This document shows positions 18,106 to 51,635 of a stretch of DNA of 51,635 nucleotides, one piece after another. The notes below the pieces were generated by a model, which worked only from the letters and a program-made list of their open reading frames with translations, ran no database searches and had not been told where the DNA came from. Origin of the DNA: Elusimicrobiaceae bacterium. Lineage in GTDB: Bacteria; Elusimicrobiota; Elusimicrobia; Elusimicrobiales; Elusimicrobiaceae. The stretch is taken from positions 1 to 51,635 of the forward strand of contig JAQVSV010000009.1 in NCBI GenBank assembly GCA_028700325.1, in the 5' to 3' direction. Every line of letters begins with the position of its first letter. The stretch's first letter is position 1. Both the position numbers and the translations under genes were made by a program.

Positions 18106-18155
18106 GATAGCTGTCCCATTTATTGAAATTCAATATAGCTGCGAGGGCGAAACGC

Positions 18156-21583: not shown

Positions 21584-21585
21584 AT

Positions 21586-21620
21586 AAAAAACCACCTTTC
21601 AGCCCGCGCTGAAAGGTGGT
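21586..21620 (-). terminator. tRNA-Lys terminator that contains the next gene's ribosome-binding site
   Basis: A perfect 12-bp stem (21591-21602 with 21609-21620) with a 6-base loop is followed by six T residues on the minus strand. The descending arm includes AAAGGTGG, placed as the Shine-Dalgarno of the gene starting at 21583. Confidence 0.92.
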
Positions 21621-22801: not shown

Positions 22802-24052
22802 ATGTCAAAGGAACGAGTGGTAGCCTCAATAGATCTGGGCGGCGGCCGTGTTACCTGCGTATTGGCTGCGCGCGATCCGGAAACCAACAGCCTTAACGTT
22901 CTTTCGGGCGCTTCGGCGCCCTGCAAAGGCGTCAAGGGAGGCGTGGTGGTTGACATACAGGAAACCGCAGCGGCGATCGAGCAGGTGGTGGATCAGGCGG
23001 AGCAGGCCGCCGGGGCCGAAGTAACCGCGCTGATCCACGGAGTGCGGGGCAACCATCTGGAATCGCGCAACAGCCACGGCGCGTACAACATTTCCAGATC
23101 GGACAAGGAAATAACCGCCGAAGACGTGCATTACGCGCTGGAAAACGCGAAAGCCATCTCGCTGCAGACCAACCGGGAAATTCTTCAGGTGATACCCCAG
23201 AGCTTTACGATAGACGGGCAGAAAGGCATACCCAACCCCGAAGGCATGGAAGGCTCGCTTCTTGAGGTGGATGTGCACATCATATCGGGATCAAATTCTC
23301 ATCTCAACAATCTGCTGAAAGCCGTTTCCAAAGCCGGTTTCGAAGCGGAGGACACTTTTGCCAGCATCGTGCCGCTGTGCGAAGCGGTGCTTACGGACGA
23401 GGAGAAAGAGCTTGGCGCCGTGCTGGTGGATTTCGGTTCGGAAAGCACTTCCGTGGCAGTCTATATAAACGGCTCCGTGCGCTACACCAGGGAACTGCCC
23501 TACGGCAGCGATCTGATAACATCGGACATTGCGTGGGGCCTGCACACTTCGCGCGAAATAGCGCGCACGGTGAAAGAGAAATACGCCGTGGCCTGCGAGG
23601 GCCATCTGGTGGAGGACGAGGTGATCCCGGTGTCGCTGCCTGACCGGGCCGACACCAAGGAAATCAAAGCCACCGACCTGCTTGACATAGTCAAGCCGCG
23701 GGTGGAGGAACTGCTGGAACTGGTGCGGGCGGAAGTGGTTGCCTCCAATCAGGGCGATTTCATCAGAATGGCCGTGCTGACCGGCGGAGGCTCGCTGCTG
23801 CGCGGCATTGACGACCTGACCGCGCAGATTCTGGGCGTGAGCGAAGTGCGGGTGGCGGGCGTAAAACGCAATCTCGTCGTCTGCGACGACGAGGAGTTTT
23901 TCGGCCCGGCCTACAGCACCGCCGTCGCGCTGGTGCTGTACCCGGAACTGCGCCCTGCCTGCGGGATTGCTTCGGGCGAACCGAAAAAAACGGGATCCAT
24001 AAGCAGGCTCCTGGACGTTTTCAAAAATCTGGATGTATTCGGCGGAAACTAG
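22802..24052 (+). CDS. ftsA: Cell division protein FtsA
   Basis: A 416-residue actin-fold protein that anchors FtsZ to the membrane. ATP-binding segments are SIDLGGGRVTCVLA (phosphate 1), VLVDFGSESTSVAVY (phosphate 2) and AVLTGGGSLLRGI (adenosine). The C-terminal SRLLDVFKNLDVF is the usual amphipathic membrane helix. A clear AAGGAG precedes the ATG by 6 bases. It is 9 bases after ftsQ and 12 before ftsZ. Confidence 0.97.
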   Translation: MSKERVVASIDLGGGRVTCVLAARDPETNSLNVLSGASAPCKGVKGGVVVDIQETAAAIEQVVDQAEQAAGAEVTALIHGVRGNHLESRNSHGAYNISRSDKEITAEDVHYALENAKAISLQTNREILQVIPQSFTIDGQKGIPNPEGMEGSLLEVDVHIISGSNSHLNNLLKAVSKAGFEAEDTFASIVPLCEAVLTDEEKELGAVLVDFGSESTSVAVYINGSVRYTRELPYGSDLITSDIAWGLHTSREIARTVKEKYAVACEGHLVEDEVIPVSLPDRADTKEIKATDLLDIVKPRVEELLELVRAEVVASNQGDFIRMAVLTGGGSLLRGIDDLTAQILGVSEVRVAGVKRNLVVCDDEEFFGPAYSTAVALVLYPELRPACGIASGEPKKTGSISRLLDVFKNLDVFGGN

Positions 24053-24064
24053 TAACGGAGCGGT

Positions 24065-25210
24065 ATGACAGAAACCGGCAATATATTTGAATTCCAGCGC
24101 AAAACCGCGAAAATCAAGGTGGTGGGGGTGGGCGGGGGCGGCGGCAACGCGGTCAACCGCATGGTGGAGGCAAAAATCAGCGCCGTGGATTTCGTGGCGT
24201 TAAACACCGACTCGCAGGATCTGCGCAGAAATCTTGCGCCTTACCGGGTGCAGATGGGCGAAAACCTGACAAAAGGGCTGGGGGTCGGCGGGGATCCGGA
24301 AAAGGGCCGCAAAGCGGCCGAGGAATCAGCCGAGCAGATCCGGCAGGTGGTCCGCGGGGTTGACCTGCTGTTCGTTACCGCCGGGATGGGCGGCGGCACA
24401 GGCACAGGCGCCGCGCCGGTCGTGGCGAAAGTGGCGCGCGAGGAATGCGGGGAAGACATTCTCATCATCGGGGTGGTGACCCGCCCCTTCCAGTTTGAAG
24501 GCAACACCCGTGCCCAGCAGGCCGAAAGCGGGATCCGCGAGATCCGCAAATATGTGGATTCGCTGCTGGTCATTCCGAACGAACGGCTGTTTTCCATAAT
24601 AGACAAGCACACGTCCGACTCGGACGCCTACCGTATGGCCGACGAGGTGCTGCGGCAGGCCATACAGGGCATCACCGATATCATCACCCGGGCGGGGCAG
24701 GTGAACGTTGATTTCAACGATGTGAAACGGGTGATGGCTAATTCCGGGCCGGCGCTTATAGGGATAGGCGAAAAAAGCGGCGAGGGCAAACATCTGGCGG
24801 CTGCCCGGGAAGCCGTGAAATCGCCGCTGCTGGAAAACGCGGAGCTGGACGGCGCGCGCGGGCTGATAGTGCATTTTCTGTCGCGCAAAGGCGATCTGAC
24901 CCTTATGGAACAGCGCGAAGCGGTTGATTTCATCCGCGAAACCGCAAGCAAGGACGTGGTGCTTATTTACGGCACCGCGTACGATGAGTCTGTGCAGGAA
25001 GATTCTCTGAGGATAACCGTGATCGCGACGGGTTTTTCAAACGATCTCACGACCCGCAAGGTAAGCGCGCGCAAGGTGTTGCGCCAGGCCTCGCCGGAGC
25101 GGGGCGGCGCGCTGCCGGGCGGGCCGGGCGCACAGAAAGAGGAGCCGGTGCGCGATGAAATGCTGGTGCCGGCTTTTTTGCGCAGAGGCAAGAAGAAAGG
25201 TTTTTTCTGA
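24065..25210 (+). CDS. ftsZ: Cell division GTPase FtsZ
   Basis: A 381-residue tubulin homologue that forms the division ring. The GTP-binding GVGGGGGNAVNRM (about 21-33), the tubulin signature GGGTGTGAAP (about 109-118) and the T7 loop VDFNDVKRVM are all intact. A short linker (about 335-360) leads to a canonical C-terminal peptide (EMLVPAFLRRG) that binds FtsA. Length and motifs are entirely ordinary. Confidence 0.99.
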   Translation: MTETGNIFEFQRKTAKIKVVGVGGGGGNAVNRMVEAKISAVDFVALNTDSQDLRRNLAPYRVQMGENLTKGLGVGGDPEKGRKAAEESAEQIRQVVRGVDLLFVTAGMGGGTGTGAAPVVAKVAREECGEDILIIGVVTRPFQFEGNTRAQQAESGIREIRKYVDSLLVIPNERLFSIIDKHTSDSDAYRMADEVLRQAIQGITDIITRAGQVNVDFNDVKRVMANSGPALIGIGEKSGEGKHLAAAREAVKSPLLENAELDGARGLIVHFLSRKGDLTLMEQREAVDFIRETASKDVVLIYGTAYDESVQEDSLRITVIATGFSNDLTTRKVSARKVLRQASPERGGALPGGPGAQKEEPVRDEMLVPAFLRRGKKKGFF

Positions 25211-25261
25211 TGCGGGGCTGAAAACGCCGGACAAACAACCAGACTCAGGGGAGAGCATCAT

Positions 25262-26350
25262 ATGGCCGTTGACTTGAGCGTACTTTTGAAAACGATGGTG
25301 GAACACAAGGCGAGCGATCTGCACATAAGGAGCGACAATCCCGCCTATATCCGCATCAACGGCGACGTAAAGCCGCTGGAAGGCAGCCGCATGACGGCGG
25401 CGGAAGTGGAAGCGGTGGCGGAGGCCTGCATGGACTCCCGCACCCGCCGGATTTTCGCGGAACAGCTGCAGGTTGACTTTTCCATAGACGGCAAAACTTA
25501 CGGGCGGTTCCGCTTCAACGTATTCCGGCAGCGCTCGAAAATCAACATTTCCGTGCGGCACATACCCAACAAGATCCCCACGATGGAATCGCTGAACCTG
25601 CCGGCGGAAGTGTTTAAAAAAATCGCCGAAAAGGAACGCGGGCTGGTGCTCGTGACCGGCATAACGGGCTCGGGAAAATCCTCGACGCTGGCCTCCATGA
25701 TAGACCATATCAACGGCTCGATGGAGAAACACATCATCACGATAGAAGACCCGATCGAATATGTGCACGTTGACAAAAAAAGCATCCTCAGCCAGCGGGA
25801 AATAGGGGCCGACGCGACCGATTTCGTAACCGCGCTGACCGCCTCCATGCGGCAGGATCCGGATGTTATTCTGCTGGGCGAAATGCGCGACCTGGAAACC
25901 ATGCACGCCGCGATAACGGCGGCGGAAACGGGTCATCTGGTTTTCGCCACGGTGCATACGCTGAACGCGACGCAGACGCTGTCACGAATCGTTGATATGT
26001 TTCCGCCCCATCAGCAGACCCAGATTCGGCTGCAGCTGGCGGACACGCTGGTGGCGATCATCTCCCAGCGGCTGCTGGCGGCCAGACAGGGCGGCCGGAT
26101 TCCTGCGATAGAGGTGCTGGTGAAAACTCCGCACATCCAGAAGCTTGTGGAGGAAAACAAGCTGAGCGATATCACGATGGCTATCCAGAAAGGCGCTTAT
26201 TACGGCATGAAAACTTTCAACCAGTCCATGGTGGAGCTGCATCAGCAGGGGCTGGTTGACCTGAACGAAATTCTGGCGGCCGCTTCCAATCCCGATGATG
26301 TCATGCTGTCGGTGCGGGGCATTGAAGCCGACGTCAACTCGACCAAGTAG
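25262..26350 (+). CDS. pilT: Type IV pilus retraction ATPase PilT
   Basis: A 362-residue hexameric secretion ATPase that depolymerises pili. Walker A GITGSGKSST lies at about 133-142. The Asp box TIEDPIEYVH, Walker B VILLGEMRDLET and His box TVHTLNATQTLSRIVDMFP follow in order. The C-terminus ends with an Asn/Asp-rich stretch and lacks PilU-type extensions. A GGGGAGA site precedes the ATG. Its position inside the division operon, 51 bases after ftsZ, is unusual; it links pilus retraction with growth. The pilin and minor-pilin genes of this window are its likely partners. Confidence 0.96.
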   Translation: MAVDLSVLLKTMVEHKASDLHIRSDNPAYIRINGDVKPLEGSRMTAAEVEAVAEACMDSRTRRIFAEQLQVDFSIDGKTYGRFRFNVFRQRSKINISVRHIPNKIPTMESLNLPAEVFKKIAEKERGLVLVTGITGSGKSSTLASMIDHINGSMEKHIITIEDPIEYVHVDKKSILSQREIGADATDFVTALTASMRQDPDVILLGEMRDLETMHAAITAAETGHLVFATVHTLNATQTLSRIVDMFPPHQQTQIRLQLADTLVAIISQRLLAARQGGRIPAIEVLVKTPHIQKLVEENKLSDITMAIQKGAYYGMKTFNQSMVELHQQGLVDLNEILAAASNPDDVMLSVRGIEADVNSTK

Positions 26351-38252: not shown

Positions 38253-38501
38253 ATGTGCCTTGCCGTGCCGGGAAAAATCATAAGCGTAGAGAATAAAACC
38301 GCGCAGGCCGATTTTGGCGGAGTAACGCGCGCCGTGTCGGTCGCCATGCTGCCGGGCGCGAAGCCCGGCGATTACATTCTGGTGCACGCCGGTTTCGCCA
38401 TCCAGTTTTTAAGCGAAACGGAAGCGGAGGAAACAATGCGGCATTTCCGCGAGATTTACGAAATTTCGCTGGAGCAGGCGCAATCGCCCGAAAAACCATG
38501 A
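38253..38501 (+). CDS. hypC: [NiFe] hydrogenase maturation chaperone HypC
   Basis: An 82-residue chaperone that carries the Fe(CN)2CO precursor between HypD and the hydrogenase large subunit. It begins with the essential M-C-L-A-V-P-G-K (Cys2 binds iron). The gene overlaps hypD by 4 bases. A GGAG site precedes the ATG. Confidence 0.96.
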   Translation: MCLAVPGKIISVENKTAQADFGGVTRAVSVAMLPGAKPGDYILVHAGFAIQFLSETEAEETMRHFREIYEISLEQAQSPEKP

Positions 38502-39595
38502 CCGGCAGCGGCCATATATTCGAGGACTCCGCGCTCGCCCTGAAAATGGCCGAGCGCGCGCATCTGCTTGCCGGACGCATAGGCAGGCCCGTGTCGTTAA
38601 TGGAAGTATGCGGCACCCACACCATGTCAATCGCCAGAGCGGGCCTGCGCAGGCTGCTGCCGCGGAACATGAAACTGCTGTCGGGGCCGGGCTGTCCGGT
38701 CTGCGTGACGCCGCCGGGCGTGATTGACGGGATTCTGTCAGTCGCCAGAACACCCGGCGTGATAATCACCGCGTTCGGCGACATGCTTAAGGTGCGCGGA
38801 GCCTGCGCCAGCCTTGAAGACTGCCGCCGCAGCGGCGCGCAGGTGCAAATAATCTATTCCGCTCAGGACGCGCTTGAAACAGCCCGGCAAAACCCGCGAA
38901 ACCGCGTCGTGTTCGCCGGAGCGGGGTTTGAGACCACCACCCCGTCCGCCGCGCTGGCGGTTATGCAGGCGCGTGACGAAAAACTTGAAAATTTCAGCGT
39001 TTACCCGGCTTTCAAACTGGTGCCGCCCGCTCTGCGGGCTTTACTGGAAAACAAAACCGAACTGGACGGGTTTCTGCTGCCCGGCCATGTAAGCTCGGTC
39101 ATCGGACTGGCCCCTTACAGCTTTGTGGCCGGGGAATTTAAAAAACCCTGCGTGGTGGCGGGTTTCGAGGCGCTGGACATCCTGCACGCGGTCAACCTGC
39201 TGCTTGAACAGATTCTAGCCGGCGAGCCGAAAGTGGAAAACGCTTACCCGCGCGCGGTGCGCGCGCAGGGCAACCCGGAAGCGACGCGCGTGACAAACGC
39301 GGTTTTCACGGCGGCAACCGCGCGCTGGCGCGCGATAGGCGATATTCCGCTGTCGGGCCTGGCGTTCCGCCCGGACTGGTCGGCATTTGACGCCAGAACC
39401 GTTTTTGAAATATCCGAGCCTGACACGCCGGAGCCGCCCGGCTGCCTCTGCGGCGCGGTTATCACCGGGCGAGCCGCTCCGTCCGACTGTCCGCTTTTCA
39501 GAACCGCCTGCACACCCGCCGACGCCAAAGGCCCCTGCATGGTTTCTTCGGAAGGCGCATGCGCGGCGTGGTACCGTTATGGAGATCCGCTATGA
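38498..39595 (+). CDS. hypD: [NiFe] hydrogenase maturation protein HypD
   Basis: A 365-residue Fe-S protein that with HypC assembles the Fe(CN)2CO group. CGTHTMSIARAGL holds the catalytic Cys, and GPGCPVCVTP the iron-binding Cys pair. GAGFETTTPS and LPGHVSSVIG follow. The C-terminal CLCGAVITG, CPLF and CMVSSEGACAAWYRYG supply the 4Fe-4S cluster ligands. Full length and intact. Confidence 0.97.
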   Translation: MTGSGHIFEDSALALKMAERAHLLAGRIGRPVSLMEVCGTHTMSIARAGLRRLLPRNMKLLSGPGCPVCVTPPGVIDGILSVARTPGVIITAFGDMLKVRGACASLEDCRRSGAQVQIIYSAQDALETARQNPRNRVVFAGAGFETTTPSAALAVMQARDEKLENFSVYPAFKLVPPALRALLENKTELDGFLLPGHVSSVIGLAPYSFVAGEFKKPCVVAGFEALDILHAVNLLLEQILAGEPKVENAYPRAVRAQGNPEATRVTNAVFTAATARWRAIGDIPLSGLAFRPDWSAFDARTVFEISEPDTPEPPGCLCGAVITGRAAPSDCPLFRTACTPADAKGPCMVSSEGACAAWYRYGDPL

Positions 39596-40599
39596 AAAAA
39601 ATCACCATGTCGCACGGGTCCGGCGGAGCGGGAACCGACCGGCTGATAGCCGAAACCATTCTAAAGCATTTCACCGGCCCGGTGCTCGCGCGGCTGGAAG
39701 ATTCCGCCGAACTGCCCCCGCCCGGCGGGCGGCTGGCTTTCACGACGGACTCTTATGTGGTCAGCCCGCGCGTTTTTCCCGGCGGCGACATCGGGCACAT
39801 AGCCGTTTGCGGCACGGTGAACGATCTGGCGGTGAAGGGCGCGGTCCCGAAATGGATTTCGGTCGCGCTTATTCTGGAGGAGGGGCTTGAAATAGAGGAA
39901 CTGGAAAACACGCTCGCCTCCATGCAGAAAACCGCCTTGAAAGCGGGCGTCGAGATAGTTACGGGCGATACCAAGGTGGTTGAAAAAGGCAAAGCGGACG
40001 GCATGTTCATAACCGCATCCGGCATTGGCGTGATACCGGACGGGGTGCGCCTGTCCGCCGCCGGCATCCGGCCCGGCGACAGGATAATAATAAGCGGCCC
40101 GCTCGCCGAACACGGTGTCGCCGTTCTGAACGCGCGCCACAGGCTGGGCCTGAAAAGCGGAATAAAAAGCGACGGCGCGCCGCTGAACGGCCTGACCGCC
40201 GCGATACTGAAGGAACACGCGCCTTTCATCCGCGTCATGCGCGATCTGACCCGCGGCGGCCTGGCAGGCGCACTAAACGAGCTGGCCGCGGCCTGCGGCA
40301 GGGATTTCAGCATGGAGGAACGGCTCATTCCCGTGTCGGACGCGGTGCGCGCCGCGTGCGCGATACTCGGCACGGACCCGCTGGCGATGGCGAACGAAGG
40401 CAGACTCTGCCTGTTCTGCTCGGCCGACCGGGCGGAGCGGGTTTTAGCCGTCATGCGCGATACGGAATTCGGCGGCGGAGCGGCCATCGCGGGCACGGTC
40501 ACCGAAGGCAAAACCGGACGGGTGCTGCTTGCCACCGCCATCGGCGCGGAGCGTATCTTAAGCTCGCCCGAAGGCGAAGTACTGCCGCGCATCTGCTGA
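39592..40599 (+). CDS. hypE: [NiFe] hydrogenase maturation protein HypE
   Basis: A 335-residue PurM-like ATPase that dehydrates a thiocarboxamide on its own C-terminal Cys to make the cyanide ligand. MSHGSGGAGTDRLI, FTTDSYVVSPRVFPGGDIG and TGDTKVVEKGKADGMFI are family signatures, and the protein ends in PRIC with the essential terminal Cys. The ATG at 39592 overlaps the hypD stop (ATGA). Confidence 0.97.
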   Translation: MKKITMSHGSGGAGTDRLIAETILKHFTGPVLARLEDSAELPPPGGRLAFTTDSYVVSPRVFPGGDIGHIAVCGTVNDLAVKGAVPKWISVALILEEGLEIEELENTLASMQKTALKAGVEIVTGDTKVVEKGKADGMFITASGIGVIPDGVRLSAAGIRPGDRIIISGPLAEHGVAVLNARHRLGLKSGIKSDGAPLNGLTAAILKEHAPFIRVMRDLTRGGLAGALNELAAACGRDFSMEERLIPVSDAVRAACAILGTDPLAMANEGRLCLFCSADRAERVLAVMRDTEFGGGAAIAGTVTEGKTGRVLLATAIGAERILSSPEGEVLPRIC

Positions 40600-40641
40600 C
40601 GCCCGCGGCCGTTGCGCCGGTCATGCAACAAGGACAGACCG

Positions 40642-42918
40642 TTGAAGACAATACGCAAAAAAGTGCATATAACCGGGGTGGTGCAGGGTATCGGATTCCG
40701 CCCGTTCGTGTACCGCATGGCAATGGCGCGCGGAGTGCGCGGCTTTGTGTTTAACTGCGCGCAGGGCGTATTTATAGAAGCGGAAAGCGATGAGGCGGCC
40801 GTCGCCGGATTCATCAGCGATTTAAAAACAAAGGCGCCGCCCGGCGCGGTTATCAGGTCGCTGCGCGCGGAACTGATTCCGCTGGCCGGGGAGCGCGAAT
40901 TCAAAATAACCGCCAGCAGAACCGGCGGCGAAAATTCAGCCGCCATTCCCGCCGACATGGCCATGTGCGACGCCTGCCGCCGCGATATCAAAGACCCCGC
41001 CAACCGCCGCTACCGCTACCCGTTCACCAACTGCACCAACTGCGGACCGCGCTTTACAATAGTACGCCGGCTGCCGTATGACCGCCCGCATACGGTGATG
41101 GACAAATTCGCCCTGTGCCCCGCCTGCGCCGCCGAGTACCAAAACCCGGCCGACCGGCGGTTCCACGCCCAGCCCAACGCCTGCCCCGACTGCGGCCCGC
41201 GCGCGCAATACATCAGCGGCGGAAACCGGGTTTGCGCAATAGCCGCGCTCAGGCAGGCCGCGCAGGCGCTGGCGGACGGCAAAATAATCGCCGTGAAAAG
41301 CCTCGGCGGGTTCCATCTGGCGTGCCAGGCATCGAACGATGCGGCCGTCGCTTTGCTGCGCGCGCGCAAAAACCGGCCGGACAAGCCGTTCGCGCTGATG
41401 TTCCCGTCGCTCAAAGCCGTCAAGAAACACTGCCGCGTGAGCGAAAACGAGCAGGCGGCGCTGCTTTCGTCCGCCGCGCCGGCGGTTACGCTCAAGCGCA
41501 TCACCGCCGCCTATCCGGCGGCCGCGCCGGGACTGGACACGTTCGCCGTAATGCTGCCGTTTACTCCGCTGCACGAACTGCTGTTCGACTGCCGGGCCGG
41601 ACTGGGACTGACCGGCCCGCTGGTAATGACCTCGGCCAACCGCGGCGGCGAACCCGTATTGTATGAGGACGAAACGCTGTGCGCCCGGCTGCCGGGGGTG
41701 TTTGACGCACTGCTGACCCACAACCGCGACATCCATAACCCCTGCGACGACTCGGTGGTTTATGAAACCGGCGGCCGGATCGTGCCGCTGCGGCGCGCGC
41801 GCGGCTACGTGCCGGCGGGCGTAAAACTGCCCGGCGCCGGCTCGGTTATGGCGTGCGGCGCGCAGCAGAAAAACACTTTCTGCATTACCAGGGGCGACGA
41901 AGCGGTTTTGTCCCAGCATATCGGCGACATGGACGGGCTGGAAGCGGAAAGGTTTTTCCTCTCCTCATACGAAAAACTGAAAGCGCTGCTCAGCGCCGAG
42001 CCTGAACTTTTCGCGCGGGATCTGCATCCCGGCTATGCCGCTTACGCGCTGTGCCGGCGCCTCGCCGCGGGCCGCGAAATAATTGACGTGCAGCACCACC
42101 ACGCGCATATCGCCTCCGTCATGGCGGAACACGGGCTGAAAGAACCGGTTATCGGCGCGGCATTCGACGGGACCGGGCTGGGAACGGACGGCGCCGTCTG
42201 GGGCGGGGAATTCCTCGTCTGCCGCGGCGGCTCGTTTGAACGGGCCGGCGCGCTTGAACGGACCCGGCTTCCGGGCGGCGACGCCGCCGTCCGCGCGCCC
42301 TGGCGCGCGGCGCTCGCCTGGACCGGGGTTGAACACGGTATTTTTTCCGCGGTGCCGGTCGAGGAATTTGAAGCCGTGTCGGCTATGCTCGAAAGCGGAT
42401 TTAACAGCCCGCTTTCCTCCTCCATGGGCAGGCTGTTTGACGCGGCCGCTTTTCTCGCGGGCGGGCCGGCGGAAGTTTCATACGAGGGTCAGGCGGCCAT
42501 GGAATTCGAGGCGCTGGCCTCGGCAGGCAACGGACGCTGCGCCGTAATGCCCGCGTTCGGAATTGAAGAAACAGAAAATTTCGTGACGGTTTCGCCCGGC
42601 GCCGCGCTCGCGGAAATAGCCGCCATTCGGCAGGAAACACGCGGCGCGCTGCCTGTGCAGCTGCGGCGCGAAATAGCCTGCGCGTTCCACCACCGCGTGG
42701 CGCAGGCCGCCACGGAAGCGGTTGAGCTGATAGCGCGGCGCACCGGCATAAGAACAGTCGCTTTATCGGGCGGGGTTTTCCAGAACCGGCTGCTGCTCGG
42801 GCATACGGCAAGACTGCTTAAGGAACGCGGCCTGCACGTTTACTGCAACCACGCGGTGCCCGCCAACGACGGCGGACTCTCGCTCGGCCAGGCCGCGGTA
42901 GCGGCCTGGAAAACCTAA
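40642..42918 (+). CDS. hypF: [NiFe] hydrogenase maturation carbamoyltransferase HypF
   Basis: A 758-residue enzyme that transfers the carbamoyl group to HypE. Domain order: acylphosphatase-like (VVQGIGFRPFVYRMA), two zinc fingers (CDACRRDI, CTNCGPRF, CPACAAEY, CPDCGP), YrdC-like ATP domain (KSLGGFHLACQASND) and Kae1-like domain (HHHAHIASVMAEHG). It most probably starts at TTG 40642, with AAGGA 7 bases upstream; a TTG at 40612 is also in frame but has no site. Its stop overlaps the stop of the convergent PilX-like gene by 4 bases, with no terminator between them. HypA and HypB are not in the window. Confidence 0.96.
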   Translation: MKTIRKKVHITGVVQGIGFRPFVYRMAMARGVRGFVFNCAQGVFIEAESDEAAVAGFISDLKTKAPPGAVIRSLRAELIPLAGEREFKITASRTGGENSAAIPADMAMCDACRRDIKDPANRRYRYPFTNCTNCGPRFTIVRRLPYDRPHTVMDKFALCPACAAEYQNPADRRFHAQPNACPDCGPRAQYISGGNRVCAIAALRQAAQALADGKIIAVKSLGGFHLACQASNDAAVALLRARKNRPDKPFALMFPSLKAVKKHCRVSENEQAALLSSAAPAVTLKRITAAYPAAAPGLDTFAVMLPFTPLHELLFDCRAGLGLTGPLVMTSANRGGEPVLYEDETLCARLPGVFDALLTHNRDIHNPCDDSVVYETGGRIVPLRRARGYVPAGVKLPGAGSVMACGAQQKNTFCITRGDEAVLSQHIGDMDGLEAERFFLSSYEKLKALLSAEPELFARDLHPGYAAYALCRRLAAGREIIDVQHHHAHIASVMAEHGLKEPVIGAAFDGTGLGTDGAVWGGEFLVCRGGSFERAGALERTRLPGGDAAVRAPWRAALAWTGVEHGIFSAVPVEEFEAVSAMLESGFNSPLSSSMGRLFDAAAFLAGGPAEVSYEGQAAMEFEALASAGNGRCAVMPAFGIEETENFVTVSPGAALAEIAAIRQETRGALPVQLRREIACAFHHRVAQAATEAVELIARRTGIRTVALSGGVFQNRLLLGHTARLLKERGLHVYCNHAVPANDGGLSLGQAAVAAWKT

Positions 42919-44264
42919 AATCTCACCGGCTGCAATTCCCGCCACGACGTTTGCGACATGGAAGCCGTGGAAGAACAGCCGGAATGGAAAATATCCGCGG
43001 ACGGGTCGAGATAAAAATTCACCCGCCCGCTCGCCACCAGCCCGCCCAGCGCGTAGAGCATTCCGTAAATCCCGGTCTGGCCGGTCATGGTCAGCTGCCC
43101 GGTCACATACAGCGCGCCCTTGAACACAGGACAGCTGTCGTCGCCGCCGCCCAGATGGTGATGCGCCACGCAGCCGTACCCGAACTTGAACGGCTCGACG
43201 GCGTGGTATCCGGCGTCGCCGGGATACTGGTGCCAGCATTCATTATCACCGCCGCCGGAACAGGTCAGGGTGGAAATATTGAGCTGGTTGGTGCCGCAGA
43301 AAGGCGCGCCTTTCATATATTCCTGATATGCCCGTGCCGGCGGCGTGACTGTGAAACCGCCGTAGCCGTCGGCGCAGGAACCCTGGCCCGAGATATGCAC
43401 CGGCCCCAGCGCGATAAGCACGCCCCGCAGATGCGACACGCCGGCGAGGCTGAATCCCTTTTCAAAAAACCAGACCGCGGAATCGTCGTTGGAAAGCAGA
43501 TTCGACAGCGTGACGTAATTCTGGTAATAATGCCCCTGATGCCGGGCGGAAGCCCGGTAGCTTTCAAAATCAATCGCGGGCATGTGCGGCACGAAATGCG
43601 GATTATAGGACCACCACTCCATTCTGTCGGTTCTGGGATGATGAGGATTGCTGCCGCGCCCGAAAATCGCGCCGCCGGCCACCTTGCGCGGGAAATACTT
43701 GTCCGCATTGCCCGACAGCCTGATATCCTGCTGGGCGGCTATCTTGCCCCATACTCCGATCGCGTTGCCGGAAAATTTTATCCAGTAGGAATTCACGACA
43801 GTATCAGTCCGTTCGGCCTGATTGGTGTAAAGCACTTCAATCGTGCGGTACTCCCTGCCGGAAGCGTCTCTGCCGGTTGAAACGACGCGCACTTCGCCGT
43901 AAGCCGCGGTGCTCGACAGGCCGACCCGGTAAGTTCCGGAATCCGCCATATCCGAGTAGCTGTAGTCGAATTTATAGCCGGCCGGCGCCACGCCGCTTTT
44001 CACTATAAGATCGTAGACGGTGGTGCTGTCGCGCAGCAACAGCAGCGCGCGGTTCGCGCCGGCTTCCGCCAGCGCATACGCCGTCTGGTTGCGCTGTTCT
44101 TTCTGGGAAGCGTTGCTGTCCTGCCGCGCCAGATAGACCAACGAAGGCACCAGCACCGAAAGCACCGCTATTATCAGTATCGCTATCAGCAGCGACACTC
44201 CCGCGTTATCCGCCGCCCGCCGTGAAACCCGCCCTGAACAGCCTGCCGTTTTTTTGTTATTCAT
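42915..44264 (-). CDS. PilX-like minor pilin with large C-terminal domain
   Basis: A 449-residue membrane-tethered protein. After a long basic leader comes AGVSLLIAILIIAVLSVLVPSLVYLA, a prepilin-like helix without the +5 Glu, as in PilX and GspK. DSNASQKEQRNQTAYALAEAGANRALLLLRD is the PilX-type spine. The large C-terminal part has cysteines (for example CGTNQLNISTLTCSGGGDNECWHQYPGD) and repeated His/Gly stretches (VAHHHLGGGDDSCP), so disulphides or metal binding are possible. It is the last gene of the minor-pilin operon. Function: probably pilus priming or tip assembly. Confidence 0.8.
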   Translation of the reverse strand: MNNKKTAGCSGRVSRRAADNAGVSLLIAILIIAVLSVLVPSLVYLARQDSNASQKEQRNQTAYALAEAGANRALLLLRDSTTVYDLIVKSGVAPAGYKFDYSYSDMADSGTYRVGLSSTAAYGEVRVVSTGRDASGREYRTIEVLYTNQAERTDTVVNSYWIKFSGNAIGVWGKIAAQQDIRLSGNADKYFPRKVAGGAIFGRGSNPHHPRTDRMEWWSYNPHFVPHMPAIDFESYRASARHQGHYYQNYVTLSNLLSNDDSAVWFFEKGFSLAGVSHLRGVLIALGPVHISGQGSCADGYGGFTVTPPARAYQEYMKGAPFCGTNQLNISTLTCSGGGDNECWHQYPGDAGYHAVEPFKFGYGCVAHHHLGGGDDSCPVFKGALYVTGQLTMTGQTGIYGMLYALGGLVASGRVNFYLDPSADIFHSGCSSTASMSQTSWRELQPVRF

Positions 44265-44748
44265 TCTGCACCCGTACCTTTTCAGCCCACATGTAAAGTT
44301 TTCTTTTGTGATTTGCCGATTCTTTCCTCACAGCGAACGAAACCGACAGATACCTGTCGTCATCCGTGCGCGGAAACGCGAACGCCGTAAACACCACGTC
44401 GCGCGTCATCACTCTGACCGGATCGGAAGTGGACGTGGAATACAGCACTCCGTCATCCAGATAATATGCGAGCGCGGAGCCGGACTGCTTCGTAAAAGTT
44501 ATCCGCGAATAGGGCGGTTCGCCGGCGGCGCTGTCAATTGTGACCGTCGCGGCTTTCGCCTGCCGCAGATTGCGGGTCATCAGATCCATCGCCACGCGCG
44601 ACTCGATCTGCAGCGACAGCTGGCTGCTGTTCTGGAGATAAAACTTCCGTATCTGAAGCAGAACGGCCGCCCCCATCAGCGCGATAAGCCCCATGATTAC
44701 GCTGGTTATTATAACTTCGGTTAAAGTGAACCCTTTTCTGTTTAACAT
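44257..44748 (-). CDS. Short prepilin (minor pilin, GspH/FimT-like size)
   Basis: A 163-residue prepilin with leader MLNRKG and mature FTLTEVIITSVIMGLIALMGAAVLL, with Glu at +5. The globular domain is small and ends basic. It overlaps the PilX-like gene by 8 bases. It probably forms part of the initiation complex. Confidence 0.88.
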   Translation of the reverse strand: MLNRKGFTLTEVIITSVIMGLIALMGAAVLLQIRKFYLQNSSQLSLQIESRVAMDLMTRNLRQAKAATVTIDSAAGEPPYSRITFTKQSGSALAYYLDDGVLYSTSTSDPVRVMTRDVVFTAFAFPRTDDDRYLSVSFAVRKESANHKRKLYMWAEKVRVQNE

Positions 44749-44751
44749 ACG

Positions 44752-47223
44752 CTAAAAATCAAAATCCGCCGTCACGGCCGCCGCTTCCGTCATCGTTACC
44801 GCCTGCGCGCGGCGCGCGCCGTTGCGGAAAGCGTAGACGTAATAGGTGATTTCGCTGTCGCTGCCGCGCACGGTAACGGAATAAGTCCCGTCCGGGCGGG
44901 TGGAATCTGCGTAATACACCGTGCCGCCGCCGCGCAGCGCGGCGTCATTGACCGGCGGGCCGGCCGCCAGGCTGACGGTGGAAATTACTATAAGCGCGCC
45001 GTCGGGAACGGCGGCTCCGCCTTCCCGCACGGTGCCTTTAATCGCGCACATGGTGTTGGATACGGTGAAAGTTGCCGTCCACACCGTGGCGCCCGCCGTG
45101 TAAACGTTAGCCGCCACGCTTTCGGGCGAAGCGGTTTCGCTGCTGTCAAGCTGCGGCTCAACGGCATAAGTGCCGGAAGACAGGTTCTGCATCGTGAAAT
45201 ACCCCGCCTGGTTGGTAAGCGCGTAACCGGATTCCAGCCCGTTGCTGACGGCGGTCACCGCCACGCCGGAAATAGGATCAACCCCGTTTGACGTAACCCG
45301 TCCGGCAATATGGCCCACTATGGAAATCGAGAAATCCACGTCCCCTGTGATCTGCCCTGTTGAAACCGTCACGCCCTGTGAAGACACCGTGGCATAATAG
45401 TCCTTATAACCGGCTACATCGGCGGCGTTGGCGATCACGGTGGCCAGACCCGCGGGCGCGGCAAGCAGATACCGGCCGGCTGAATCGGTTCTGGCGGCGT
45501 TCTCGCCGGCCGTTACGGTAATATCCTGCAACGGCGCCTCGTAAACATTGCACACCCGCCCGCTTATAAAACCGTTTTCGGTGGTGGAAACCAGCCGCAC
45601 CGAATACACCCCGCCATACGGCCACGCGGGGGCAGTAACGGCGTTGGGAATATATACCGTGGCATTGGCGGAAACCGTCACAGAAGAAACCGTGGCGAAA
45701 TACAAATCGCTCGAAATGGAAACCGTCCAGGTTCCTGTTGATACCGGCGTCAGCGAAAACGACGCCTTGGGATAGGCGCCGCTGACATAAGACACCTCCG
45801 CCTGCACCGCGGAAGACAGGCCGTCGTTGGCGGAAACCGCCGCTCCGTAGGCCGGCACGCCCGCGAGCGCGGCCTGGATATCCGCGGAATTTTTCACAGC
45901 GTAATTCATGGAATGCGAGGCATAAAAATTCAGGCTGTTATTATCCGTGTCGTATGCGCGGCCGCTTGTCGTGTTGAGCGAGCCGGGATAGGTCAGCCGG
46001 ACCAGCTGTTCCCTATCGCCCAGCCCGCCTGAAACGGTAACCGCGGTTCCCTCGGTAAGCGCCGACGGAGCCGAACTGTTGTGCGAACTGGTGCGCCACG
46101 CGACACGGTCGTAATAACCCGACGAAGCCGGATTCCTTATGCCGATTCCGCCGGTCGTGTTTTTAGCGATCAGGTCGGAATTGCTGTACACGGCGTCGGC
46201 GCTTACGCCGTAATAACCATACTGCACGGTGCTGGCGTTTGAAATAAGATAATAGCCCTGCGCGGGCAGAATGTTTGTCCGGTAGGTCAGGGAAACTTCG
46301 GCCAGCGAAGTGGAATTGGATTTCTGATACAGCAGCCGGAGCGTATCCGCGTTTATTGTCATCGGCGCCGTGGTGGGGTTATACAGTTCCACCACTTCCG
46401 TATTGTTTGACGTGCCGGCCATCACCATGCTGATTACGGGGCCGGACGCGAGCCACACATCGCCCTTGACAGTGCCGAACGACATGGCGGCCAGGTTAAA
46501 GTTCTGCGTGGTTGTCTGGTCCTGCGAAAGCGTGATAACCGGAGAGTACTGGCTGTAATAGCCGTCCCGGCCGGCTTTCAATGTATAAAATCCTTCCGTG
46601 GCCTTGAGCTGGTAAAACCCCAGCGCATTGCTGAAAGCGTATAAATCCGGATTCTGCGCCACTTCCACCCGCACGCCCGATAACGGCCAGATATTGCCGG
46701 TGGTTACAAAACCGCTGACGGTGGAATCCGCCGCGGCCACATCCGAATTCGCATAAAGGCCGGAAAGCGAATACTTATGCCATTTATTGTTCTCCTGCCA
46801 CACTATATAAACGGTAATGCGCTTGGCGCCGGTATCAGCTTCGGCATAGGAAACCGAACTGAGCGCAACTCCGGTGTCCCGCACTTTTTCCACATAAACG
46901 CGTCGGGAATAACCGACTCCGCCGGATGCGATCGTTTCCGGCGGATAAACCGCAATATCATAACTGAACCCGCCCAAGCCGCTTTCCTGCGCCTGCGCGG
47001 CCGCCGTTGTAACCGCCAGCCGCGAATAGGGAAGCTGTTTGAGAGCTTCCATCTTCTGCACCGCCAGCGGCACCACCGAAAGCGACTGCATTTTGGAATG
47101 CCGTATGGCGCGCGCGATCGTGCTGAAGGACGACAGAAACACCAGTCCCGCCACCACCAGCAGCGAGCCGGCTATCATAAGCTCTACAAGAGTAACGCCT
47201 TTTCTGTTCAACCCGGTCTTCAT
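44752..47223 (-). CDS. Giant prepilin with lamin-tail-like and carboxypeptidase-regulatory-like domains
   Basis: An 823-residue prepilin. Leader MKTGLNRKG, then VTLVELMIAGSLLVVAGLVFL with Glu at +5. Residues 168-243 form a carboxypeptidase-regulatory-like (Ig-type) domain (GFVTTGNIWPLSGVRVEV, GFYTLKAGRDGYY). Residues about 262-435 resemble a lamin-tail domain: VVELYNPTTAPMTI, ILPAQGYYLISNAS and the closing GRAYDTDNNSLNF are characteristic. The C-terminal 270 residues contain three more regulatory-like repeats (ISGRVCNVYEAPLQDITV, IAGRVTSNGVDPISGVAV, IKGTVREGGAAVPDGAL). It is far larger than a usual minor pilin and looks like a stalk- or tip-type adhesin. Start is the ATG at 47223, just before the leader; only a weak ribosome-binding site is seen. 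Confidence 0.85.
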   Translation of the reverse strand: MKTGLNRKGVTLVELMIAGSLLVVAGLVFLSSFSTIARAIRHSKMQSLSVVPLAVQKMEALKQLPYSRLAVTTAAAQAQESGLGGFSYDIAVYPPETIASGGVGYSRRVYVEKVRDTGVALSSVSYAEADTGAKRITVYIVWQENNKWHKYSLSGLYANSDVAAADSTVSGFVTTGNIWPLSGVRVEVAQNPDLYAFSNALGFYQLKATEGFYTLKAGRDGYYSQYSPVITLSQDQTTTQNFNLAAMSFGTVKGDVWLASGPVISMVMAGTSNNTEVVELYNPTTAPMTINADTLRLLYQKSNSTSLAEVSLTYRTNILPAQGYYLISNASTVQYGYYGVSADAVYSNSDLIAKNTTGGIGIRNPASSGYYDRVAWRTSSHNSSAPSALTEGTAVTVSGGLGDREQLVRLTYPGSLNTTSGRAYDTDNNSLNFYASHSMNYAVKNSADIQAALAGVPAYGAAVSANDGLSSAVQAEVSYVSGAYPKASFSLTPVSTGTWTVSISSDLYFATVSSVTVSANATVYIPNAVTAPAWPYGGVYSVRLVSTTENGFISGRVCNVYEAPLQDITVTAGENAARTDSAGRYLLAAPAGLATVIANAADVAGYKDYYATVSSQGVTVSTGQITGDVDFSISIVGHIAGRVTSNGVDPISGVAVTAVSNGLESGYALTNQAGYFTMQNLSSGTYAVEPQLDSSETASPESVAANVYTAGATVWTATFTVSNTMCAIKGTVREGGAAVPDGALIVISTVSLAAGPPVNDAALRGGGTVYYADSTRPDGTYSVTVRGSDSEITYYVYAFRNGARRAQAVTMTEAAAVTADFDF

Positions 47224-47242
47224 TATATTCAAACGCCGCCCG

Positions 47243-48307
47243 TCACCAGATGTCACGGGAACTGGAGATGACTGACATATCGTTAAACACAAGATTGTTA
47301 CGTTCGCCCTGCGCCACCGCCACGCTCCGCACCAGCACCTGCCGCCCGTTCGCGCCGCCGATTATGCCCACCTCCAGCCCGCCCGGGAAACTGCCGCCGG
47401 CCGTGGCGTAAGCGGGCACGGTGGTTTTCGGGGCGGTCCAGACGCCTGTGTTTGGCGCCACTCCGTAACTGTAGCTCCGGCCCATTATGCCCGTAAGCGC
47501 CTGCGTAAGATTTTTGCTTTTGGCTATGGCGATCTTGTGGCTTGGCACACTGGTCAGCGTGCCGGCGGCGTTTATGGAGGAGAACGCAAGCGTGTAGTCC
47601 TGCGTGTCGCTCAGCAGACAGGTGTTTATGCCGGCCGCCAGCAGATTGGCATTCAGCTTTTTGCGGTTTGTGGAGCTCGTAAGAGCGGTCAGCTGCTTGC
47701 AATCGGCATACAGGCCGCTTTCCAGCTCGACCAGATTATAAGCCTGCACTCCGTTTACCGTTTGCGCGCCGTCCGCCGTAAGGTAATACTGGACAAGTTT
47801 GTAGGTATCCACCCGCCAGGTGCTGCTGCCGGACAGCGCGATATCCTGCGAACCGTAAAGATACGCGAAAAACAGCCGGTTGCCGAAAGAAGCCGCCTTG
47901 AACGAGGCGGCGGCGCTGGAGAAAGAACCTTGTTCCTCTATTGAAGCGAGCTTGCTGCCCGTCAGCACGGCCGGCGCGCCGGCCATGTTAAAGCGCGCGA
48001 GCAGTCCTGTGCCCAAAACGTCATTTTCGAACAGGCGTTTGGAACGGCCCAGCCGCAAATAAATCCTGTTAAGCGAGTTCTGGTTCATCTGCTTCATCGT
48101 GCTGGCGGCTTCAAAGTTGGTAAAACCTTTGCTGGTGGACAGGATCAGAACCGCAAGCACCGGCACAACGATAAGGGCGATGGTGGAGGTGACTATCACC
48201 TCCAGCAGCGTATGGCCTGCCGCCCGGCGGCGCGGGCCGCCTGCGCCTGCCGCGGAACCGCAATGGTTTTTAATCGCGCAGGTAAACATTGACTTGGTCA
48301 TAGGCAT
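47243..48307 (-). CDS. PilW-like prepilin
   Basis: A prepilin of up to 354 residues. The leader is long and ends RRRAAG, followed by HTLLEVIVTSTIALIVVPVLAVLIL with Glu at +5. The first mature residue is His rather than the usual Phe or Leu. The globular domain is about 270 residues with few cysteines. Three ATGs (48307, 48301, 48289) lie within the end of the upstream gene, overlapping it by 20 to 38 bases; which is used is unclear. It is part of the minor-pilin operon. Confidence 0.82.
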   Translation of the reverse strand: MPMTKSMFTCAIKNHCGSAAGAGGPRRRAAGHTLLEVIVTSTIALIVVPVLAVLILSTSKGFTNFEAASTMKQMNQNSLNRIYLRLGRSKRLFENDVLGTGLLARFNMAGAPAVLTGSKLASIEEQGSFSSAAASFKAASFGNRLFFAYLYGSQDIALSGSSTWRVDTYKLVQYYLTADGAQTVNGVQAYNLVELESGLYADCKQLTALTSSTNRKKLNANLLAAGINTCLLSDTQDYTLAFSSINAAGTLTSVPSHKIAIAKSKNLTQALTGIMGRSYSYGVAPNTGVWTAPKTTVPAYATAGGSFPGGLEVGIIGGANGRQVLVRSVAVAQGERNNLVFNDMSVISSSRDIW

Positions 48308-51300
48308 AGTGCAACGGAATCGCGGAACGGAACGCCTCCACTCTCAGAACATAGGACCCTTTGGGCAGCCCGCCCACGTCCCAGTCAAAGGAAGTGCCGC
48401 TCTGGGCGTAAGCGCCGCTGTAAACTCCGGCGAGAGCGGAAGCCCCGTCCAGGCAGTATTTCCAGGTGTTGCCGTTGTCGGCGGAATATTTGGCAATATA
48501 GACAAGAGCGGTGCTTTCCGAATATCCCGAACTGTAGTCGGAGGTGTACGGCTCGCCGTTCCAGCGCAGCCACGACGCGCTCCATTGCATGGGCACGGCG
48601 GTCACGCCGTTAAACTCGTCGGTTACCGCCGGAGAACTGATCACGACCCTGGGCAGCTGGGCGATATGCGCGCTGCCGGTGTAGAGGCCCGCGTCAAGGA
48701 AAGTGTAAAGCAGAGAAAGCAGCGCGTAACTGCTCAGTTGCGTGCTGCCAAAACTCGCCTGCGTGGTCAAACCCGACACGGTCACAAACGCCGCGCTCGA
48801 AGCGTAAGCCATCTGCACGATGCCGCTCGCCGTGTACGATGTGCTGTAATCGGAGGTGTAATAGATGCGGCTCGCGCTGGCCGCCGCGGGCACAGACAGG
48901 GTGGACCGGATCATCGAATACGTCGTATCCAACCAGGCCGGCGGATAACTGCTCCCGTAGTTTATTGTATAGGGACGCAGCGAAGCCACCACCGTGGCCA
49001 GCGGAAAGTTGAAAACCGCCGCGGCATCCAGTCCCACATCCGAAATCGTGCCTGACGAAGTTACCGAAATATGCATGAATGGCCCGTTTTTGCTGGACGG
49101 CTTGCCGTTGAAAAAAGCGGCGCAGCCATATCCGCCCGTCCGGTTGGTGCTGCCGTGCGGCAGAAAAACGCTCTTTGAAGCGCGGTAATAGTTGCCGATC
49201 CCGGTGGACAGGTTGCCGCTCGACACCCAGGCCGCATAAGCCGCATCAGGATACAGCTCGCCCAGCCACGGCTTGGAATACCAACTGCCCGAAGTGTTGG
49301 CCACCAGCCGGTTCGAAGTCAGCCCGGAAGCGGCGTTATAATTGAGTATTTCATCCACATAGACTGAACTGGTCTCGCCGCTGGCGCTCCACGGGGTTTT
49401 CTTGAATTTCAGCGCGTTGGCCAGCGGCGCCATATCGCTGCCGAATTCGCCGCCCAGCCCGTAATAGTAATAACTGAACCCGGTGATGGCCGACCACACG
49501 GCCTGCGAATTAATCAGCCCTTCCCGGTAGAGCTGAAACGCGCGGTCAACGTCAATATCGTTATCGTCGTCACCCCAGCCGGAGCGGGTTTTGGTGAAAC
49601 CGGGCCAATAGCTGGAAGAAACCGACGCGAAATTCCAGTTATAGCGGTGATCCGCCACAACATCCTTGTAAGGGCAGTGACGCGGATCGCCCAGCAGCTG
49701 GTACTTTTCCGTGACAGGCAATGCGACTCCGTGCCAGACGTAGGTTTTTGAAATGTTGTCCGGCTTGTTCGAGCCGATCCCCACCGTCAGGTCGTCGCCT
49801 ATGCGCGTTTCCACGGTCAGCGCGCGGGCCGGCAGAGCCGCGCCGTTAAGCGTAATCACCCAGCGCGCGGTGTTTTTCGGCATGGAATTGGAGGTGTTGG
49901 TCAGATTGCGCGAAAAATCCACCGTCGAGGCGGTGGACACCGGACAGGGCACATATTCCATGCCGTACAGCCTCATGCTGTCAGGCAGGCCCTGCACGTT
50001 CGCGCCGGAAACCGTATGCGATGAATGGCGCACCGGAGTGCTGTAAAGCGTTATCAGGGTGCAATCGGAAGTCGGATGTGTAAGCAGGTAACGCCCGTCC
50101 CCGGAAACGCGCGTCGCGGAAGTATAGGCGGAAGTGGCGTTGCCGTCTATGGAAACCGCCGTGACATCCGACTCGCTTAAAGCGACGTCGGGCAGGCGTA
50201 TCGTTATGGACGGCAGCACCGCCGAAGATGAAACCCGGGCCGGTTCCGTCACATACGGATAAACCCGCAAAACCACATCCTCCGCGGCGTTGTAGCGGAT
50301 CTGCTCCGGGTGAGTCACCACCCGGTAATAGGGATAATCCGCCGGATCTTTCGCGGCGTCGGAATAATTGCGCATCGGCGGAACCGGCAGCAGTTCGCCA
50401 TGCAGATTGATCAGCACCGCATTTTTATACGGCGCGGAAGCGCTGTTCAGTTTTTCCAGCAGCATGCGCAGGCTTGGCTCCGGCGCGGAGCTGCCAGCCG
50501 ACCCGGCGGCCGCGACAAGCCCGTTATAAATAGCCTCCTCCTCCGGGTAACGCATGGCGTGATTGTACTGGTCACACACCGAATAGGTGGAGGAATTGGC
50601 GAGCGCGCCGTCGGCGTTAAGCCGCTCGTTTATGAAATCGGAGGAATAATAGGTGTAATCGCTGTCATACTGGTCGGGGATAAGGCCGGGATAGAAATAC
50701 ACATACGGCATGGCGGCCGCGTCGGACCGGGTTTCCTCGTTAATGTAAGGCGTATAATACGGATCGCGCCCGTATGAAAGCCTTGTAACCCAGTGCGTGC
50801 GCACTTCAAACCCGGGATTGCGCGACTGTATATCCTGCAGCACGCTTTCATACGCGCTGCGGATCGAGCTCATGGACGACCACCAGCCGGGCACATTGCC
50901 TATCGCCACAAGAAACACGTCAATCACCTGTGTGGGCACAAAATCGCCCTTTATGGTTTTGAGAACCGTCATCGTTTCCGCGAGTTTCACTTCCGGCGAG
51001 CCGGGATTGGAAACCGAATTCTTGTACACCCGCACAAACACCTTGCGGGAGTAGGCCTCCTCAGGCATTTTAAGCACGTTTATCCTGCGGATATATTTCC
51101 AGGCGTTGTTTTTTCTTACGTTGCCGCTGAGCGGATTGGCCGGATCGGACACGCTGCGGTCAGTGGTCAGTATGGAAGAATAGGAGGTGCCGTTATCGTA
51201 ATCGTCCAGCACGGCCACGTCGTTATCCTCCGACCCGGCCACCAGCGAACGCAGCTCCTCCAGCATCTGCATGGCTTTCTGGTTGGCGAACGCGTACTCG

Positions 51301-51422
51301 TTCTGCTCGCCGCTTTTATGGCTGAGCAGATACTGCACATTGAGCAGACCAACCACCACCAGCCCCATAATAAGGGTGGCCAGCATTATCTCGATGAGCG
51401 TCAGCCCGCGTTTCCCGGTCAT
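48270..51422 (-). CDS. Giant (1050-residue) prepilin
   Basis: A 1050-residue prepilin. Leader MTGKRG, then LTLIEIMLATLIMGLVVVGLLNV with Glu at +5. The large external part has no family I can name. It is rich in Ser, Thr and Tyr and contains many paired aromatic stretches. The C-terminus (VISSPAVTDEFNGVTAVPMQW to GSYVLRVEAF) resembles a fibronectin-type III or Ig strand order. Cysteines are few. It is probably exposed at the pilus tip. GAGG precedes the ATG at 51422 at the right distance; a longer frame upstream is not supported. It follows the truncated gene at the window edge by 7 bases. Confidence 0.82.
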   Translation of the reverse strand: MTGKRGLTLIEIMLATLIMGLVVVGLLNVQYLLSHKSGEQNEYAFANQKAMQMLEELRSLVAGSEDNDVAVLDDYDNGTSYSSILTTDRSVSDPANPLSGNVRKNNAWKYIRRINVLKMPEEAYSRKVFVRVYKNSVSNPGSPEVKLAETMTVLKTIKGDFVPTQVIDVFLVAIGNVPGWWSSMSSIRSAYESVLQDIQSRNPGFEVRTHWVTRLSYGRDPYYTPYINEETRSDAAAMPYVYFYPGLIPDQYDSDYTYYSSDFINERLNADGALANSSTYSVCDQYNHAMRYPEEEAIYNGLVAAAGSAGSSAPEPSLRMLLEKLNSASAPYKNAVLINLHGELLPVPPMRNYSDAAKDPADYPYYRVVTHPEQIRYNAAEDVVLRVYPYVTEPARVSSSAVLPSITIRLPDVALSESDVTAVSIDGNATSAYTSATRVSGDGRYLLTHPTSDCTLITLYSTPVRHSSHTVSGANVQGLPDSMRLYGMEYVPCPVSTASTVDFSRNLTNTSNSMPKNTARWVITLNGAALPARALTVETRIGDDLTVGIGSNKPDNISKTYVWHGVALPVTEKYQLLGDPRHCPYKDVVADHRYNWNFASVSSSYWPGFTKTRSGWGDDDNDIDVDRAFQLYREGLINSQAVWSAITGFSYYYYGLGGEFGSDMAPLANALKFKKTPWSASGETSSVYVDEILNYNAASGLTSNRLVANTSGSWYSKPWLGELYPDAAYAAWVSSGNLSTGIGNYYRASKSVFLPHGSTNRTGGYGCAAFFNGKPSSKNGPFMHISVTSSGTISDVGLDAAAVFNFPLATVVASLRPYTINYGSSYPPAWLDTTYSMIRSTLSVPAAASASRIYYTSDYSTSYTASGIVQMAYASSAAFVTVSGLTTQASFGSTQLSSYALLSLLYTFLDAGLYTGSAHIAQLPRVVISSPAVTDEFNGVTAVPMQWSASWLRWNGEPYTSDYSSGYSESTALVYIAKYSADNGNTWKYCLDGASALAGVYSGAYAQSGTSFDWDVGGLPKGSYVLRVEAFRSAIPLHYAYDQVNVYLRD

Positions 51423-51429
51423 AATCGCC

Positions 51430-51635
51430 TCAGTTCTCCAAAGCCGGCACGCCGATAAACACATGCAGGGTGGACTTGTTTTCCCGGTACTGGCAGATCT
51501 GCTGTTTCACGGAATTAAGCACCGAAGGATCATACCGCAGCTCGGCCACGTCAGTCGCTCCGGAGCGCGACAGCGAAAGCCCGCCGTACCCGACAAAACT
51601 GCCGGTTATCAGCGCCGGATCCTGAATTGTTGACA
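51430..51635 (-). CDS. 3' end of an upstream pilus-operon gene (partial)
   Basis: An open frame runs to the right edge of the window with no start inside it, encoding about 68 residues. The end reads YRENKSTLHVFIGVPALEN. I do not recognise it. Its stop lies 7 bases before the giant prepilin start, so it is in the same operon and is probably another pilus or envelope protein. The gene begins outside the window. Confidence 0.65.
   Translation of the reverse strand, partial: STIQDPALITGSFVGYGGLSLSRSGATDVAELRYDPSVLNSVKQQICQYRENKSTLHVFIGVPALEN

Follow-up and report, generated by a model that had tools for sequence, protein, structure and literature searches.

Two side-by-side minor-pilin cassettes with giant modular I-position subunits as candidate type IV pilus tip complexes of Elusimicrobiota

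It is the tip subunits that determine what a type IV pilus can take hold of. To our knowledge, the Elusimicrobiota have almost no cultured members, and our literature search found no study of their pilus tips. Modular pilins, as defined by Raynaud et al. 2021, comprise more than 1,200 proteins in 264 architectures, with the PF13620 (CarboxypepD_reg) and PA14 domains among their commonest modules and an 860-residue extreme case; the same authors predicted further modular pilins carrying modules not yet in databases (PMC8179133). Absence of the glutamate at position +5 (Glu5) has been reported as a signature of K subunits (PMC9934059). Here we analyse a run of minor-pilin genes at the right end of a 51,635-nt stretch of an Elusimicrobiaceae bacterium (contig JAQVSV010000009.1 of assembly GCA_028700325.1; hereafter the window), which probably codes for a pair of alternative tip complexes built of minor pilins of the GspIJK or PilV-PilW-PilX type, with a modular pilin as I subunit.

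Five minus-strand genes lie in a row (51422-42915), neighbours being spaced apart or overlapping by between a few and 38 bases. The 68 codons preceding P0001 (P0006) share 68% identity over 66 aa with the C-terminal end of a 422-aa K-like protein of another genome (G003), where the complete gene precedes the giant and its product lacks Glu5. P0006 ends 7 nt upstream of the P0001 ATG, and the contig end (position 51635) falls inside this K-like gene. Since these codons correspond to the end of a K-like gene with a complete relative in G003, the predicted pilin gene run is of at least six genes:

51430..51633, minus strand: P0006, 3' end of the cassette A gene for a K-like (PilX/GspK-type, without Glu5) minor pilin, truncated where the contig stops.
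48270..51422, minus strand: P0001, giant I-like modular prepilin of cassette A, 1050 aa, leader ...KRG|LTLIE, ~1045 residues mature.
47243..48307, minus strand: P0002, J-like minor prepilin of cassette A, 354 aa, with Glu5, leader ...AAG|HTLLE, ~324 residues mature.
44752..47223, minus strand: P0003, giant I-like modular prepilin of cassette B, 823 aa, leader ...RKG|VTLVE, ~815 residues mature.
44257..44748, minus strand: P0004, small J-like minor prepilin of cassette B, 163 aa, with Glu5, leader ...RKG|FTLTE, ~158 residues mature.
42915..44264, minus strand: P0005, K-like minor prepilin of cassette B, 449 aa, ...NAG|VSLLI, no Glu5, with a probable beta-solenoid module.

A preliminary description of this DNA had recognized four consecutive proteins with prepilin leaders and Glu5, two of them 1050 and 823 residues long, and a PilX-like fifth. 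The four (P0001-P0004) lie where it placed them, both lengths are correct, and P0005 is PilX/GspK-like, retaining the hydrophobic helix and lacking Glu5. Its five-gene operon needs revision: all five genes are present, but a sixth, K-like gene lies upstream, and the run divides into two cassettes instead of forming one five-gene set.

The predicted pilin genes form two cassettes side by side, head to tail. In intact loci, cassette A has the order K-like (X/K), giant I-like of ~1,050 aa and J-like (W/J), and cassette B the order giant I-like of ~820 aa, small J-like and K-like. The search of Elusimicrobiota genomes for the same gene order that had been suggested earlier was run on a comparison set of 341 genomes and proved positive. 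Full-length relatives of P0001 occur in 18 genomes of 16 genera and 10 families (G003 is counted here, though its contig holds just the first 229 residues of the giant), and the family is sharply bounded, single-sequence and profile searches returning the identical 18 genomes. Members of the P0002 family (n=16), which are 30-40% identical to P0002, are encoded directly downstream of the giant; exceptions to the cassette A order comprise locus edges, split open reading frames (ORFs), GC-rich antisense ORFs and one of two copies in G334 that is without the W gene. P0005 relatives occur in 143 of the 341 genomes, and a P0003-like giant of 812-924 aa was present in all 20 P0005-relative loci read; the cassette B order (P0003-like, P0004-like, P0005-like) was read where ORF picking was undisturbed by antisense frames. 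G127 and G162 each hold two divergent complete cassette B copies back to back (L084, L088).

The two cassettes also occur apart. In G003, cassette A abuts hypF and there is no cassette B, and in the window cassette B lies exactly between A and hypF, the two HypF proteins being 49% identical. Because hypF of G003 directly adjoins cassette A, cassette B marks an exact insertion or deletion between A and hypF; the continuity of cassette A across two contigs in G003, whose assembly breaks inside it, is itself inferred. The end of the G003 hypF gene (L007:556-2835) and the W gene of cassette A are 3 bases apart. The order is reversed in G237, with B followed by A, and many genomes hold B without A. 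Cassettes A and B are thus independent, separable units. Beyond the comparison set, plasmid tblastn with P0001 and P0003 gave no match, a viral-contig scan found nothing, and a genome-contig scan with one sequence, whose sensitivity outside Elusimicrobiota was inadequate, returned UBA9627 as its sole match. The tree of giant A groups mostly by family (f29, f23, f5 and f1, with most of f6 and f7 together), and the window and G003 giants fall with members of other classes, root placement being uncertain. This topology fits ancient presence with many losses as well as a few transfers, and cannot separate the two.

All five window proteins carry class III prepilin leader motifs, conserved family by family. 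The whole 2.2 Mb genome contains just 13 prepilin motifs matching PF07963, and since three of these 13 fall in the consecutive genes described here, the leaders exceed chance; P0003 lies below the PF07963 model, and its relatives match ComGE, PilV and TIGR02532. With the cleavage site chosen by a simple score favouring G at -1 and E at +5, Glu5 is kept in every pilin-type giant A (16/16), J-like A (16/16), giant B (18/18) and J-like B (15/15) protein, and is absent from every member of both K-like families (14/14 and 16/16; 30/30 members). An origin by chance or as pseudogenes was rejected on the conservation across 18 genomes.

Subunit positions were assigned by scanning each family member against NCBIfam models; for the window proteins themselves, the generic prepilin motif alone reaches a curated cut-off. 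The giant A family matches PilV (14/17), ComGE (14/17) and GspI (13/17), and the giant B family ComGE (16/18), PilV (14/18) and GspI (9/18), which clearly points to the I position (PilV/GspI/ComGE) for both giants. The P0004 family, matching Verru_Chthon C (14/15), the prepilin motif (14/15) and GspJ (12/15), is likewise predicted clearly as J-like. Matches of the P0002 family are spread over the prepilin motif (14/16), ComGE (12/16), ComGF (8/16), Verru_Chthon C (4/16) and GspJ (2/16). In the K-like families, matches to GspK, ComGG and Verru_Chthon A are N-terminal and at noise level, or missing, and the K assignment follows from this weak N-terminal similarity to GspK/ComGG together with the absence of Glu5. 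Membership of the Verru_Chthon cassette was considered on account of protein size and rejected, the best matches of the window proteins being N-terminal only and scoring 21.4 bits against a cut-off of 256.5 (model C) and 13.7 against 332.3 (model A).

These assignments bear on an alternative in which the cassettes would serve a type II secretion-like system as pseudopilus tips, with the arms recruiting or gating exoproteins in the periplasm and not displayed outside. I, J and K subunits are common to type II secretion systems (T2SS) and type IV pili (T4P), the GspI, GspJ and GspK models match alongside PilV, and the genome, with 4 secretins and 11 T2SSE-family ATPases beside one prepilin peptidase, holds more than one filament machine. 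Arms that are 660-890 residues long and bear PA14 and CarboxypepD_reg modules are nevertheless better suited to extracellular binding than to a periplasmic pseudopilus, and no T2SS (gspC-M) genes were recognized beside the cassettes in the window, where the neighbours are hypC, hypD, hypE and hypF-like genes and the contig stops on the upstream side. We regard this alternative as unlikely.

The arm of cassette A lies outside the known domain families. P0001 consists of a prepilin helix and pilin module (~1-155) followed by a passenger of ~890 aa that ends in a C-terminal domain with a conserved S-x-D-x-G-x-x-W Asp-box. Sequence searches of Pfam, NCBIfam and PDB assigned the passenger to no family. 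Across the giant A family, the sole Pfam signals in the passenger are weak BNR/Asp-box matches and PA14 domains inserted near P0001 residue 395 in 3 of 17 relatives (E down to 3e-24; L046, L048, L049), and a PDB profile search with the family hit nothing beyond pilin N termini and short sialidase segments with Asp-boxes. Giants of two separate lineages (families f20 and f23) share this PA14 insertion site. By these searches, the 890-residue arm is an undescribed domain family. A degenerate vWA domain, prompted by a beta-alpha-beta order at ~165-215 and the stretch NAVLINLHGELLP, was unsupported: set against 27 vWA domains from Elusimicrobiota in a profile-profile comparison, it reached E=0.36, and other parts of the protein scored at least as well.

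In two genomes (G339, G340), the passenger is also found on a protein with a Sec-type leader and no prepilin leader, encoded directly downstream of cassette A:

L042:8455-9903, plus strand: Sec-leader protein with a P0001-family passenger.
L036:13355-16249 (same gene as L045:2222-5116), plus strand: Sec-leader protein with a P0001-family passenger.

Both proteins nest inside the pilin tree with full support, and this nesting suggests conversion from pilin to secreted protein. As the same module occurs on Sec-leader proteins of both genomes, the passenger seems autonomous.

Across 17 giant A proteins, mostly 34-50% identical to P0001, conservation reaches at least 93% at 108 positions occupied by polar, aromatic or Cys residues. 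This conservation, the sharp boundary of the family and the Sec-leader forms would suit an arm that acts as an enzyme or as a receptor for one conserved ligand, with the pilus merely its carrier and no role as adhesin. That reading is rather improbable: no enzyme family matches arm A by sequence, the vWA comparison gave nothing, and conservation by itself may reflect the fold.

The arm of cassette B is built from recognizable parts. In P0003 the pilin module is followed by CarboxypepD_reg repeats (PF13620, E=1.5e-21, three stretches), whose PDB relatives are domains of carboxypeptidase D and NOMO, and by a lamin-tail-like domain (LTD, E=1.1e-5, below the LTD cut-off). Relatives of P0005 match beta-solenoid, ice-binding-like adhesive and DUF7305 domains, and beta-solenoid-type matches recur, weakly but consistently, in some relatives of both K-like families; P0005 thus carries a probable beta-solenoid module. 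Nucleic-acid receptors for DNA uptake, in which a K-like solenoid would bind DNA and the giant arm stabilize it, are brought to mind by these solenoid matches, by ComGE being among the commonest matches of both giants and by ComZ of Thermus thermophilus, a K-like pilin that has a large beta-solenoid and, as its partner, the I-like pilin PilA2 of a neighbouring gene (PMC6561018), but we find this very doubtful, as the ComGE matches reflect a shared I position and not competence, nothing in ComZ/PilA2 corresponds to giant arms carrying sugar-binding-type modules, and no competence genes were seen beside the locus.

The architectures place both giants among the modular pilins. P0003 joins a pilin N terminus to PF13620 and LTD modules, and P0001 joins one to ~890 aa that also occur without the pilin part; as predicted from sequence, giant B is a modular pilin and giant A is of the kind foreseen by Raynaud et al. 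2021. The preliminary description had been unable to match the operon to a described type IV pilus system, which stands for the 1050-aa protein, whose arm has no known family, and falls for the 823-aa protein, whose modular-pilin architecture is a described one. Its proposal of a single tip complex with long adhesive arms fares similarly: a minor-pilin tip with long arms is the best reading of the family assignments and strict gene order, and the single complex gives way to two separable I-J-K cassettes.

For these two candidate tip complexes we infer the following mechanism. In each cassette, the one prepilin peptidase detected in the genome would cleave the three hydrophobic N-terminal helices, and an I-J-K trimer would assemble in the inner membrane, where it would prime and cap a type IV filament. 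The K-like subunit lacking Glu5 would occupy the very tip, and the fibre would drive the trimer outwards in front of it. The pilin in the I position would act as a modular pilin, with arm B formed by a string of CarboxypepD_reg (carbohydrate-binding-like) domains and the lamin-tail-like domain, and arm A by the undescribed module of 890 residues, into which a PA14 sugar-binding domain is sometimes inserted. Projecting from the tip together with the K-like beta-solenoid, the arms could attach to a ligand present on some surface, cell or polymer, and would take the place held by PilY1 in other diderms; the PilY1 family (PF05567) was above cut-off in none of the 341 Elusimicrobiota genomes, and the control panel also holds no positive genome. 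Adhesion by the arms is a reasoned guess from the PF13620 and PA14 modules.

Several points weigh against this interpretation. The placement of P0002 as J is weak, its family matching ComGE more often than GspJ or ComGF, as are all K assignments, which rest on near-noise N-terminal similarity and loss of Glu5, and neither cassette includes a gene for an H subunit. The strong conservation of the cassette-A passenger would be unusual for a freely diversifying adhesin, and the PilY1 absence comes without a positive control. AlphaFold2 models on shallow alignments have low confidence (P0001, 3 sequences: mean pLDDT 29.9; residues 155-400: 40.8). The locus does not lie beside pilus machinery and, given one prepilin peptidase, 4 secretins and 11 T2SSE-family ATPases in the genome, any of its type IV filament machines might assemble these tips. 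A bolder version, in which the I-position minor pilin is itself a giant effector replacing PilY1, arm A is a new fold whose binding or catalytic site is conserved and which is also released as a free secreted protein, and the whole is a distinct Elusimicrobiota tip design, is offered only tentatively.

Other genes in the window touch on the pilus or border the locus. At 15751-21595 (minus strand), a gene for a 146-aa PilA/PilE-like pilin adjoins genes for three tandem membrane proteins of 570-600 aa with TPR tails; these resemble TMTC/PMT-type glycosyltransferases, and G003 has two genes like them next to its cassette A (L006:593-4481). Such genes near a pilin are possibly pilin glycosylation genes. 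At 22802-26350 (plus strand), ftsA and ftsZ are followed directly by a gene for a 362-aa T2SSE-family (PilT-like) ATPase. The hydrogenase maturation genes hypC, hypD, hypE and hypF-like (38253-42918, plus strand) are convergent with the pilin operon, hypF and the P0005 gene overlapping by 4 bases.

The two phylum-wide cassettes offer a concrete, testable answer to the question of what replaces PilY1 in a diderm lineage in which PilY1 was not detected. Modular pilins, until now scattered single proteins, would through them gain a conserved three-gene design in which the I subunit is the carrier. Structure determination would be well directed at the cassette-A arm, a family that lacks any assigned domain, has many invariant residues and also exists in a free secreted form.

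Several known systems share features with the cassettes. Modular pilins such as PilB (with a vWA module) and PilC (with a lectin module) of Streptococcus sanguinis likewise graft a bulky extracellular module onto an N-terminal pilin module, whereas the cassettes have mature giants of 800-1230 residues, a fixed three-gene I-J-K set and an undescribed A module. In S. sanguinis, the I-like subunit PilA is small (PMC9934059), whereas the I position of the Elusimicrobiota cassettes is taken by the modular giant. With GspI-GspJ-GspK and FimU-PilV-PilW-PilX, the locus has in common the co-encoding of subunits, here predicted, of I, J and K type, a K-like subunit without Glu5 and a single prepilin peptidase; it differs in an I subunit many times larger, a K-like subunit with a probable solenoid-like module, cassettes that lack an H subunit, a gene run made up of two different sets, and no PilY1 found. 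The Verru_Chthon cassette proteins A-D (TIGR02600, TIGR02599, TIGR02596) are also oversized and prepilin-type, model A being 1296 aa long, and the J-like P0004 family matches model C in 14 of 15 members, but the matches are N-terminal and far below curated cut-offs, and the giant here is I-like whereas the Verru_Chthon giant of model A resembles K-like subunits. Thermus ComZ/PilA2 pairs a beta-solenoid K-like pilin with an I-like pilin at a proposed tip position, as the cassettes may do; there, however, the K-like ComZ, for which DNA binding has been shown (PMC6561018), is the sole bulky subunit, with no giant I arm. PilY1/PilC, too, is a large effector presented at the tip by a minor-pilin complex, but PilY1 is a separate non-pilin protein with a C-terminal beta-propeller (PF05567), whereas the cassette arm is fused to the pilin. 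As far as the literature searched shows, the new element is the giant I subunit in a fixed, phylum-wide cassette.

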